NCBI RefSeq assembly: GCF_937873615.1
Contig: NZ_CALMYP010000068.1
Span: forward strand, 110,780 to 174,779
Direction of reading: 5' to 3'
DNA length: 64,000 nucleotides
Source of the DNA: an uncultured Paracoccus sp.
GTDB lineage: Bacteria > Pseudomonadota > Alphaproteobacteria > Rhodobacterales > Rhodobacteraceae
Below, piece by piece: positions 14,055 through 61,990 of the stretch (position 1 is its first letter; each line of letters opens with the position of its first letter). The translations under genes and the position numbers were made by a program. The notes below the pieces were generated by a model that worked only from the letters and a program-made list of their open reading frames with translations, was not told where the DNA came from and did no database searches.

Positions 14055-14669
14055 ATGACCCGCTTTCTTCCCGGCGTTATCGCCATGGCCATCATTGTCG
14101 TGGCCTCGAATATCCTCGTCCAATATCAGCTCGGCGCCTGGCTGACCTGGGGGGCGATCACCTATCCTTTCGCCTTCCTGGTCACGGATGTGATGAACCG
14201 CGTCTATGGGCCTGCGGCGGCGCGGCGCGTCGTGCTGGCGGGCTTTGTCATCGGCGTTGCCTGCTCGTTGATTGCCGCAGGCATGGACAAGACGACGCTG
14301 CGAATCGCCATTGCCTCGGGCACGGCCTTCCTGCTGGCGCAATTGCTGGACATCACCGTCTTCAACGCCTTGCGCGCCAATGGCGGCTGGTGGAAGGCGC
14401 CGCTGCTGTCGTCCTTCTTCGGCTCGGCGCTGGATACGGCGCTGTTCTTCTCGATCGCCTTCGCCAGCCAGTTCAGCTTCATCGACCCTGCCGACAACGT
14501 GTCCTGGGCGAATGAACTGGTCCCGCTGATCGGTTTCGGGCCGGATGCGCCGGTCTGGGCATCGCTGGCGACGGCAGACTGGATAATGAAAATGCTGCTC
14601 GCTTTGCTGGCATTGGTGCCCTTCCGCATCATTGTCCGCAATATCTTGCGTCAGCCGGCAGTATTTTGA
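14055..14669 (+). CDS. queuosine precursor transporter (YhhQ/VUT family)
   Basis: This 204-residue inner-membrane protein has about six hydrophobic segments. The family signature is AWLTWGAITYPFAFLVTDVMNRVYGPAAAR near residue 30, and the middle has SGTAFLLAQLLDITVFN. Members import queuosine precursors such as preQ0/preQ1 for tRNA modification. The start overlaps the stop of an upstream open frame as ATGA, and only a weak GGA ribosome site is present. The other queuosine genes are not in the window. Confidence 0.9.
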   Translation: MTRFLPGVIAMAIIVVASNILVQYQLGAWLTWGAITYPFAFLVTDVMNRVYGPAAARRVVLAGFVIGVACSLIAAGMDKTTLRIAIASGTAFLLAQLLDITVFNALRANGGWWKAPLLSSFFGSALDTALFFSIAFASQFSFIDPADNVSWANELVPLIGFGPDAPVWASLATADWIMKMLLALLALVPFRIIVRNILRQPAVF

Positions 14670-14670
14670 G

Positions 14671-14684
14671 TTGACTTATCCACA
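14671..14684 (+). promoter_or_regulatory. possible promoter element overlapping a consensus DnaA box
   Basis: TTGACT at 14671 resembles a -35 hexamer. It runs directly into TTATCCACA (14676-14684), an exact DnaA-box match that is itself part of CCACA-AGC-TGTGG. No convincing -10 hexamer is visible at 17 bp. The site sits just before the structured leader at 14.72 kb, so DnaA occupancy could affect that transcript. Confidence 0.35.
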
Positions 14685-14735
14685 AGCTGTGGCACGCTTC
14701 CCTTACGTGGCAACATATTGAAAGGAGGTGGTCCA

Positions 14736-14792
14736 GTGTCGAGAGTGATATTGGAGAGAGGTGTTGGGACAGTCAGGGGGGCCGCGGCCTAA
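14736..14792 (+). CDS. 18-residue leader peptide ORF rich in rare codons
   Basis: A GTG start lies 7 bases after AAAGGAGG and opens an 18-codon frame, MSRVILERGVGTVRGAAA, ending in TAA. Four of its 18 codons (AGA, ATA, AGA, AGG) are types that GC-rich alphaproteobacterial genes normally avoid. Such codons make ribosome speed sensitive to tRNA supply, as in attenuator peptides. The peptide has no recognisable domain. Translation is inferred from the ribosome site only. Confidence 0.5.
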   Translation: MSRVILERGVGTVRGAAA

Positions 14793-14870
14793 GGGCAAAC
14801 CTGAGGGTTAGAAACCCTGGCTGGGACGGACGGATCTTCGATCCCTAACCGGACCATCTCCGTAGATCTC

Positions 14871-14907
14871 GCGGGCCGCCGCCTTTGGCGCGGCCCGTTT
14901 CTATTTT
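14871..14907 (+). terminator. intrinsic terminator at the end of the leader
   Basis: CGGGCCGCCGCC (14872-14883) pairs with GGCGCGGCCCG (14887-14897) across a TTT loop with one bulge. It is followed by TTTCTATTTT. It lies between the leader ORF and the phosphatase gene at 14956, so readthrough would be needed for co-expression. Confidence 0.8.
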
Positions 14908-14955
14908 CCTGCGCCAATTTACCTTCGCTTAGGAGGTCCGCGCTATCAGGGTGCC

Positions 14956-16224
14956 ATGCAGACGGTCGGCCTTCTTCAATCAAATACCTCGGTTCCTGCG
15001 CTGCGATGGCGGCGTCGGGTCATGGTGGTCGACAAAAGTGCCGCCCAACGCCGGCAACTCGCAATCCATCTGGCCCATGCCGATTACGAGGTCGTCGAAG
15101 CGGCGACAGCGACCGAAGCGCTGGAGCTTTGTCGCGAGCGGATGCCGGATTTCATCCTGTCCGGCTGGATGATGGAGGGTATGACCGGCCCGGAACTCTG
15201 TCGCGAAATCCGCAAGACCCGCGAAAACGCGTTCATCTATTTCATCCTGCTGACCTCGAAGGCAGAGCCGGCGGACATGGCTTTCGGGCTGGAATGCGGC
15301 GCCGATGAATTTCTGACCAAGCCGGTCGATGCGACCCACCTGCTCGCGCGGATGCGTGCAGCGGAACGTATTCTGCGGCTCAAGGACGAGGCGCAGCGGG
15401 CGACGGCGCAACTGACCAACACGCTGGAATCGCTGCGCCAGGTTCAGGCAGACATGGACCGGGACCTGAGCGAGGCGCGCCGTCTGCAGCAGGGTTTGAT
15501 GGGCGAACGGCAGGTCCGGTTTGGCGATGTCTCGGTCTCCAAGATGCTGCGACCCGCCGGGCATGTCGGCGGTGATCTGGCCGGCAGCTTCGCCATAAAC
15601 GCCCGGCGCTTCGGCGTCTTTGCCATCGACGTTTCGGGGCACGGGGTCGCCGCAGCCCTGTTGACCGCACGTTTGGCGACGCAGTTTTCGGCTTCGCTCG
15701 ATCAGAATGTCGCCCTGTTCATCAATGATCTGGGCCTCTACGATTCTCGTCCGCCGGTGATGCTGGCGCGCTATCTGAACCACCTGATGCTGACGGATTT
15801 TCATACCGACAGCTATTTCACCATGATCTACGCGGTGGTCGATCATGTCAGTGGAGAGGTGCGCATGGTTCAGGCCGGCCATCCGCACCCTGTCGTTCAG
15901 CGCGCGAATGGTGACATGGAAGTGCTGGGCAATGGCGGCTTGCCCATCGGCGTCGTTGAGAATGCTGCCTATGAGGAAATCACCGTGAAGCTCGGTCCCG
16001 GTGACCGGCTGCTGATCGCCTCAGATGGATTGCTGGACGCGACCAGCAAGGCCGGCGAGGTGCTGGGCGAGGAAGGATTGGCAACGATCATGCGCACCAA
16101 TCGTGCGACCTCGGGCATTGGACTGCTTGAGGCGATGGTCTGGTCGGTTCTCGCCTATACCGGCGGCAGGCAGGAGGACGACATTTCCGCCCTCCTGATC
16201 GAACATCTTGGTCAATCTGCCTGA
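14956..16224 (+). CDS. SpoIIE/PP2C-type serine phosphatase with degenerate receiver domain
   Basis: This 422-residue protein has a response-regulator receiver (about 22-135), a coiled-coil linker (about 135-175) and a SpoIIE/PP2C phosphatase domain (about 180-420). The phosphatase keeps metal-binding aspartates in HVGGDLAG, FAIDVSGHGVAAALL, LLIASDGLLDAT and QEDDISALLIE. In the receiver, the phosphate-accepting aspartate is replaced by Gly70 (FILSGWMMEG), and one of the two acidic-pocket aspartates is Lys27, although Lys122 (TKPVD) remains. Canonical phosphorelay control is therefore unlikely. AGGAGGT at 14931 is 18 nt before the ATG, further than usual. The end overlaps the convergent oxidoreductase gene by 13 nt. 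Confidence 0.9.
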   Translation: MQTVGLLQSNTSVPALRWRRRVMVVDKSAAQRRQLAIHLAHADYEVVEAATATEALELCRERMPDFILSGWMMEGMTGPELCREIRKTRENAFIYFILLTSKAEPADMAFGLECGADEFLTKPVDATHLLARMRAAERILRLKDEAQRATAQLTNTLESLRQVQADMDRDLSEARRLQQGLMGERQVRFGDVSVSKMLRPAGHVGGDLAGSFAINARRFGVFAIDVSGHGVAAALLTARLATQFSASLDQNVALFINDLGLYDSRPPVMLARYLNHLMLTDFHTDSYFTMIYAVVDHVSGEVRMVQAGHPHPVVQRANGDMEVLGNGGLPIGVVENAAYEEITVKLGPGDRLLIASDGLLDATSKAGEVLGEEGLATIMRTNRATSGIGLLEAMVWSVLAYTGGRQEDDISALLIEHLGQSA

Positions 16225-61734: not shown

Positions 61735-61825
61735 TCACCGCCCGCATCGGGCAAGTGCCGAGCGGCAACAGGATCGCAAAATTCTCTTGCCAGAATCCCT
61801 GCGCAAGGCTAGGCCATCGCCAGGA

Positions 61826-61990
61826 ATACGGGAGACACTGGCCGCAAGGTCAGGGCCGAAGGAGCAACCGCCCCGGTAAACTCTCAGGCACAAGGGACCG
61901 GTTCCGACAAGAACTCTGAAGAGAGGCCCGTAGGGGCCCGCCGAAGGATAACGATCTCAGGCGCCCGTCATCGGGCAGGGACAGAGGGGG
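61826..61990 (+). promoter_or_regulatory. tandem glycine riboswitch upstream of gcvT
   Basis: Two aptamers are visible. The first has CGGGAGAC, GGCCGAAGGAGCAA, CCGGTAAACTCTCAGGCA and GGACCG. The second has ACTCTGAAGAGAGG, CCGCCGAAGGATAACG, ATCTCAGGC and CGGGCAGGGACAGAGGG. These are the conserved glycine-aptamer cores. It lies about 35-200 bp before gcvT and should switch the glycine-cleavage operon on when glycine is high. Confidence 0.95.

Follow-up and report, generated by a model that had tools for sequence, protein, structure and literature searches.

Positions 14706..14907 on the plus strand of a 64,000-nucleotide stretch of DNA (the window) carry a block that, by comparison with related genomes, is a stand-alone small RNA gene and not the leader of the phosphatase gene behind it. 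The block contains a ribosome site that complements the free 16S rRNA tail, a start codon at a fixed distance from it and a short open reading frame; the gene itself, the masking of its ribosome site and the conservation of its start and stop are supported by comparison among loci. We consider it probable that this alphaproteobacterial small RNA is also a tiny mRNA and that it acts as a two-state switch, pairing alternately with itself and with the 30S ribosomal subunit.

Location and Surroundings of the RNA Gene

The ends of the gene are approximate, the 5' end having been placed from promoter spacing and the 3' end from the terminator. Upstream lies a Vut_1 gene (14055..14669, plus strand; Pfam Vut_1, 5.8e-26), which we take to encode a transporter of the queuosine-precursor type, and BLAST clustering places a Vut_1 homologue upstream of the RNA in 133 of 140 family and genus loci. 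The stop codon of the window's Vut_1 gene is followed immediately by a putative promoter (14671..14699, plus strand), composed of TTGAC and a GGCAC.CTT element about 17 nt further on. TTGAC forms five invariant columns in an alignment of 30 genus loci; a promoter scan found no consensus sigma-70 site, and the assignment of a promoter is therefore a tentative one. At the other end, an intrinsic terminator (14871..14907, plus strand) consists of a stem at 14871-14898 followed by a T-rich tail. The 200-nt RNA folds at -88.4 kcal/mol, compared with a mean of -74 for shuffled sequences (z -2.98; 1 of 200 shuffles as good). ARAGORN finds no tmRNA in the 64-kb window, and a tmRNA identity was dropped; at the RNA locus, Rfam gives no match at gathering score, riboswitches included.

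The downstream gene (14956..16224, plus strand) encodes, by Pfam, a response regulator plus SpoIIE phosphatase, and we judge it to lie outside the system. The initial annotation had taken the block for a leader or attenuator of this gene, a reading that the neighbourhoods contradict: of 316 loci, only 4, all belonging to this genus, have a SpoIIE-type phosphatase gene next to the RNA, and in 20 of 30 genus loci the nearest gene predicted behind the RNA lies on the opposite strand (strands, here and below, are those called by our own crude gene finder). We therefore reject control of the phosphatase and regard the block as an independent RNA gene.

Distribution among Alphaproteobacteria and Kinship with CC2171

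A DNA search with positions 14700-14910 matched 36 of 37 genus genomes, the source genome included (E<=6.2e-23), and in 35 of the 36 other genus genomes the match extends over about 167-208 nt, with identities of 74-94%. The same kind of search in 24 genomes of other families gave one short match, to the terminator part. The best-conserved parts in the 30 genus loci include TTGAC, the ribosome site, the GTG and the CTAACCGGACCAT segment. A 48-nt sequence-only model of the block that holds the ribosome site was matched in 117 of 149 genomes of the family, which we call Rhodobacteraceae, and in 68 of 289 class genomes, by our own counts from the listings at E<=1e-4; matches ending at model position 32 with E near 1e-3, which look like antisense 16S sequence, were left out. 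In a phylum sample of 299 genomes, whose share outside the class is not stated, all 56 matches at E<=1e-4 fall in Alphaproteobacteria. The conservation of the 48-nt block is partly a matter of selection, because the loci were found with models that contain it. In the family set, 133 genomes match at E<=0.05, and the 110 family loci analysed below comprise 109 besides the source genome and one from the class search; one of the 110 belongs to the source genus.

Related loci occur in several alphaproteobacterial orders. The exact pattern GAAAGGAGGTGRTCCRRTGTC is found, among the matches listed (80 of 119 stretches titled), in Mesorhizobium, Bosea, Bradyrhizobium, Methylobacterium, Sphingomonas, Novosphingobium, Erythrobacter, Roseococcus, Inquilinus, Brevundimonas and many Rhodobacteraceae. 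A single title among these 80, Gemmatimonadota bin1194 (L249), names another phylum, possibly through a binning error. One genome (G048) holds two strong matches to the 48-nt model, at 805099 and 2922042, indicating that the RNA can occur twice, and at L039:1306-1402 a small SRP RNA gene adjoins the RNA gene.

Rfam model RF01867, the Caulobacter sRNA CC2171, scores the window at 27.0 bits, below its gathering score of 75. The match is full-length (model positions 1-159), with an E value of 4.6e-4 for 311 bases, the best of 4 listed, and an E value of 0.00131 against the whole source genome. When 240 class genomes were searched with RF01867, 56 matched at E<=0.01, 7 of them above the cut-off. 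Since the window RNA fails the Rfam cut-off, we call it a diverged relative of CC2171 and a new variant. It shares with CC2171 the block GAAAGGAGGUGRUCCAGUGUC, the start codon and the terminator, and probably also a helix that joins the early ORF to the pre-terminator segment; it differs in peptide, length and inner structure, and the Rfam consensus, as far as printed, shows no pairing of the Shine-Dalgarno (SD) sequence with an internal mimic. Several of Rfam's pairs between the early ORF and the pre-terminator segment are non-standard in the window, and a shorter, equivalent loop-tail helix covaries in the family. Landt 2008 is reportedly the original Caulobacter sRNA paper. In the accessible parts of two later reports, CC2171 appears among the predicted sRNAs of Mesorhizobium huakuii (PMC5596092) and its consensus structure is said to have been improved by one covarying pair in release 15 (PMC11701678). 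A literature search with subscription papers mostly outside its reach returned no function for CC2171 and no description of the 16S-tail site, the masking or the ORF.

A Ribosome Site Complementary to the 16S rRNA Tail

The free tail of 16S rRNA is GGAUCACCUCCUUUC, given here in the general version used for our comparisons; no 16S match was found in the source genome, where rRNA seems absent or masked, and complementarity refers to this general tail. The accessible part of a Sinorhizobium paper prints the same general tail as an oligonucleotide (PMC6943124). The ribosome site GAAAGGAGGTGGTCC (14720..14734, plus strand) is complementary to this single-stranded 3' end. Within it, AAAGGAGGTGGTCC (14721-14734) matches 13 of the 14 bases of AAAGGAGGTGATCC, as had been reported before, and the odd base can form a G-U pair. 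Elsewhere in the 64-kb window the closest matches, nine in number, have 3 mismatches each, and AAAGGAGGTGNTCCA occurs once in the whole genome. In the window, the computed duplex of the site with the 16S tail (-29.1 kcal/mol) is more stable than that of the site with its internal mimic (-23.6).

Comparison supports a complementarity to the free 16S tail that is near-invariant among loci. AAAGGAGGTG is present in 193 of 197 loci that were anchored on AGGAGG only, and an ATG, GTG or TTG stands at one fixed distance in all 197, the scoring by which these loci were placed itself favouring both AAAGGAGGTG and a start codon. Among 30 class loci drawn from the RF01867 search, AAAGGAGGTG is found in 30 of 30 (the anchor of this set) and is followed by ATCC or GTCC with few changes, by two freer bases of which the second opens the start codon (G in 15, A in 14, T in 1), and by TG. 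The first conserved base is the G opposite the C of UUUC (28 of 30 class loci) and the last are the CC of ATCC (30 of 30 and 28 of 30); outside both edges the bases are variable. The second codon is TCN in 29 of these 30 loci, with all four third bases represented.

Predicted Masking of the Ribosome Site

In the consensus fold predicted by RNAalifold from 103 family sequences (108 filtered loci, with only the window locus kept from six genus rows), GGAGGUG is paired with CACCUCC or CAUCUCC ahead of the terminator and the start codon lies inside a hairpin, UCCAGUGUC/GAUAUUGGA. The corresponding anti-SD mimic of the window, GGACCATCTCC (14851..14861, plus strand), forms 11 bp with 14724-14734 in the minimum-energy fold. 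The start-codon hairpin (14732..14755, plus strand), predicted from the alignment, would join 14732-14740 to 14747-14755 around a GAGAGT loop. The minimum-energy fold of the window gives 14732-14734, for which the mimic helix and the start hairpin compete, to the mimic and shortens the hairpin to 14735-14740 with 14747-14752. The third predicted element is a loop-tail (pseudoknot) helix that ties GAG in the hairpin loop (14743..14745, plus strand) to CTC just before the terminator (14868..14870, plus strand); the third base of GAG and its partner form the top covarying pair of the alignment.

The seven pairs of the SD-mimic helix are paired in 97.6% of cells in a second alignment of the 103 sequences made with MAFFT; for the same number of sequences, the values are 94.7% for the start hairpin and 90.4% for the loop-tail helix. 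The SD-mimic pairs change on one side only (pair 23-186 is GC in 59 sequences and GU in 42, pair 24-184 UA in 68 and UG in 29). The top loop-tail pair is GC in about 67-68, AU in 33 and GU in 2-3 of the 103 sequences, and the next is AU in 52, UA in 13 and unpaired in 25; this helix has 3 bp in the window and, by eye, up to 5 bp in other genera. Cells with double changes number 56, compared with 20.5 in shuffles (0 of 500 as high), and pairs with double changes number 5, compared with 3.3 (30 of 500 shuffles reach 5), in a statistic that ignores the relatedness of the sequences. When the partner is slid by 1-3 columns, pairing falls to 44-57%. Our own tree-based test of covariation ranks the loop-tail pair first in the entire alignment, and none of 40 null alignments reaches it; no other pair passes this test, the pairs of the terminator stem ranking next, below the bar. 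Taken by comparison, these data support a ribosome site masked by GGACCATCTCC, by the start-codon hairpin and by the covarying loop-tail helix.

Two pairings had been proposed for this part of the RNA from the sequence of the window, where a segment CTAACCGGACCATCTCC (14845-14861) precedes the terminator, with CTAACC at 14845-14850 and GGACCATCTC at 14851-14860. The pairing of GGACCATCTC with the ribosome site is borne out, since GGACCATCTC is exact in 25 of 30 genus loci, the other 5 hold the pairing through G-U, and the family helix is as constant as described above. The pairing of CTAACC with GGTTAG (14806-14811) was rejected as a switch: CTAACC is present in 30 of 30 genus loci, and the GGTTAG arm only in the window locus.

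The Two Contacts in Other Alphaproteobacteria

Outside the family, the same two contacts were sought by computed pairing energies. In 56 class loci, codons 2-9 pair with the pre-terminator segment at a mean of -16.5 kcal/mol, compared with -11.1 for swapped partners (z -12.3; 0 of 2000 permutations). For pairing of the start region with +36..+90 the value is z -5.4 (again 0 of 2000); two control pairings gave z -0.4 and +1.3. These 56 loci were taken from 58, L207 having no terminator and L208 being a duplicate. A smaller class set of 53 loci, which lacks L051, L061, L069 and L073 and includes the family locus L217, gave z -11.4 and -5.3 (controls 0.0 and +1.2). A second set of 64 named loci, drawn from 119 after removal of 26 Rhodobacteraceae-type loci and of loci that were duplicates or had no T-rich terminator, gave z -12.6 and -7.0 (controls +1.6 and -0.4). 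Terminators were picked by script, and some misplaced ones (e.g. L032, L039, L059) are kept in the counts.

Examples of the pairings are CATTGTC with GACAATG, ATGAGATT with AATCTCAT, and CATGAAT with ATTCATG; further examples are GATCCAG/CTGGATC, GATCCCG/CGGGATC and GATCCTG/CAGGATC. In some loci the second contact, of the GATCCAG/CTGGATC type, is not visible by eye. The comparison as a whole supports a two-contact topology that holds class-wide.

The 18-Codon Reading Frame

The ORF VSRVILERGVGTVRGAAA (14736..14792, plus strand) runs for 18 codons from GTG at 14736-14738 to TAA at 14790-14792. A length of 18 codons is found in 107 of 116 family and genus loci. Codon usage was tabulated for 108 of these, filtered by peptide pattern and length; of the 8 set aside, 4 also have 18 codons. 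In the filtered loci, codon 19 is TGA in 52, TAG in 38, TAA in 13 and another codon in 5; TGG was never seen where 19 would be expected, but this absence carries no independent weight, since a shifting GGGCA motif gives rise to both TGA and TAG. Ahead of the terminator, frame 0 is closed in all 230 loci of three locus sets, compared with 195 and 191 for frames +1 and +2. A conserved start codon with an in-frame stop, as would be expected of a small mRNA or a dual-function sRNA, is thus what these loci have.

The body of the frame behaves differently. Codon 2 is Ser in 102 of the 108 filtered loci, and codon 3 is steady (AGA in 99). Codon 7 is GAG in 106 and codon 12 ACA in 102, and synonyms hardly ever occur at either, which points to a constraint on the RNA. 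At codons 4, 5, 6 and 14 the first and second positions vary and the third is mostly fixed; we therefore infer translation from the start, the stop and the spacing. Throughout the family the peptide shows a recognisable VSR..LE.GVGT pattern; in other families, peptides have little in common apart from Met-Ser. Because the start is fixed and frame 0 closed, but positions 1 and 2 vary and the peptides diverge, the start, the second codon, the length and the stop look selected, and the body appears to be constrained mainly as RNA.

Near the end of the ORF, a GAGCARCCYY-like RNA motif is found in L048, L060, L144, L201 and L214, all outside the family type (EQPL, EQPS, EQPP). It resembles GGCAGCCC, which in the family stands just 3' of the stop codon, and may be another anti-SD-like contact.

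Discussion

Our analysis suggests the following model. In a closed state, the ribosome site would be paired with the internal anti-SD copy and the start codon held in the hairpin, whose loop would be tied to the segment before the terminator. In an open state, the ribosome site would pair instead with the complete free 16S tail, the ribosome would start on the short ORF and melt the hairpin, and the internal anti-SD segment would become free. The closed and the 30S-bound forms would exclude each other. We infer the transcription start, the 30S binding, the switching and any target. The likely output would be titration of 30S subunits or an action of the freed anti-SD segment on other mRNAs; in some species it might alternatively be read-through into arfB. 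In ribosome profiling of Caulobacter, ncRNA regions, including 27 from tiling arrays, show no translation, according to the accessible part of a report in which CC2171 is not named (PMC4117421); the observation would agree with an RNA that is closed most of the time, and also with one that never undergoes translation. More speculatively, the RNA could be a class-wide sensor of free 30S, a mini-mRNA masked by its own internal 16S-tail copy as a lid, which 30S binding opens, releasing the anti-SD segment (and changing arfB read-through in many Rhodobacteraceae), so that ribosome availability is linked to gene expression; we offer this as a possibility and hold it more doubtful than not.

On the comparisons presented here, CC2171 becomes one branch of an RNA present in several alphaproteobacterial orders. 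The RNA gains an anatomy, comprising the 16S-tail site, the internal mimic, the start hairpin, the loop-tail helix and, in one family, a fixed short ORF, and with it a testable mechanism. Should the switch prove real, competition for the 16S tail would itself be the direct basis of a natural regulator, and the position of the RNA ahead of arfB in a large part of one family would link this regulator to ribosome rescue.

Several known systems resemble parts of this RNA. In riboswitch- or thermometer-like masking, the SD sequence is paired in a compact fold with a pseudoknot-type contact. The window RNA likewise pairs its SD in a compact fold with such a contact, but the masked SD belongs to its own ORF in a free-standing gene. 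As described in the accessible parts of the respective reports, the anti-SD sRNAs of alphaproteobacteria (SmelA075 and SmelA099 of Sinorhizobium, SisA-D of Caulobacter) carry anti-SD segments as the window RNA does; unlike them, the window RNA pairs its anti-SD segment with an SD of its own and has a start codon and an ORF. The rnTrpL RNA of Sinorhizobium, a leader peptide with an attenuator, is likewise described there as a small RNA with a short ORF, whereas the window RNA lacks a constant downstream gene and conserved regulatory codons.

The best surviving alternative to the two-state switch is that the RNA is a plain base-pairing sRNA with the anti-SD segment as its seed, the SD serving as an internal lid and the ORF-like part being a by-product of that lid. 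Exposed anti-SD motifs are known in sRNAs of the class, according to the accessible parts of two reports (PMC3927594, PMC12559287), the body of the ORF is constrained like RNA, and the untranslated state of Caulobacter ncRNA regions reported in PMC4117421, as far as accessible, would agree. A lid, however, needs only the partner of the mimic, yet the leading AAA and the start codon (197 of 197 loci) are kept, as are the TCN second codon (29 of 30 class loci) and the stop position in the family. We therefore regard a plain base-pairing sRNA as unlikely.

The gene behind the RNA raises a further alternative, that of a cis-acting leader or attenuator (of the phosphatase here, of arfB in other Rhodobacteraceae) in which the state of the ribosome decides between termination and read-through. 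In 86 of 110 family loci, the RNA is followed on its own strand by an arfB homologue (RF-1 domain), presumably a GGQ rescue factor. The gap between terminator and arfB is below 40 nt in 37 of these 86, which leaves little room for a separate promoter, and arfB acts on stalled ribosomes. Against this, arfB never follows the RNA in 30 genus loci, each represented by about 1.5 kb of DNA, though 36 of 37 genus genomes keep the RNA, and the single arfB match of the source genome is on another contig; the RNA therefore persists where arfB does not follow it, and elsewhere it may feed read-through into arfB. The phosphatase is as rare a neighbour as noted above; in 158 loci outside the family type the next gene is on the same strand in 75, on the opposite strand in 71 and not seen in 12; and no antiterminator pairing is visible on inspection by eye. 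A translation-sensed attenuator would be expected to have a conserved cis target gene, and arfB takes that place in part of one family only. We hold a cis leader to be unlikely too, slightly more so than the plain base-pairing sRNA.

In 82 of the 86 family loci, arfB begins 13-127 nt past the terminator (e.g. L106, L110). Where the gap between RNA and arfB is shortest, mostly no SD is evident by eye, and arfB may be leaderless or reached by read-through. Two loci outside the family type, L276 and L207, have arfB on the opposite flank of the RNA and on the opposite strand, which shows that RNA and gene can be neighbours in either arrangement.

That the RNA is a gene for a functional small peptide, whose translation is autoregulated by RNA structure, seems very improbable to us. 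The peptide pattern recognisable across the family and the conserved start and 18-codon length would speak for it, but outside the family there is little in common beyond Met-Ser, and a GAG at codon 7 and an ACA at codon 12 that are hardly ever replaced by synonyms point to constraint on the RNA. Finally, rare-codon, translation-sensed attenuation upstream of the phosphatase, as proposed at first from AGA, ATA, AGA and AGG at codons 3, 5, 8 and 14 of the window ORF and from the terminator 3' of it, is hardly credible, being largely contradicted by comparison: codon 5 is ATA in only 34 of 108 loci (else GTA, ATG, ACA, AGA, GCA etc.) and codon 8 AGA in 48, with codon 3 alone conserved, and neither the GGTTAG arm nor the phosphatase as a neighbour is constant among loci.

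Every sequence element named in the initial annotation is present in the window. Of its overall reading, a small mRNA or sRNA with an extreme ribosome site stands, and translation-sensed attenuation of the phosphatase, with the rare-codon sensing on which it drew, falls. Its proposed look at relatives found the block throughout most of the genus and family (36 of 37 and 117 of 149 genomes), and covariation in the stems proved significant for the loop-tail pair and for no other pair in the tree-based test. Elsewhere in the window, a glycine riboswitch aptamer at 61818-61910 (plus strand, 52.7 bits) is the sole Rfam match at gathering score.
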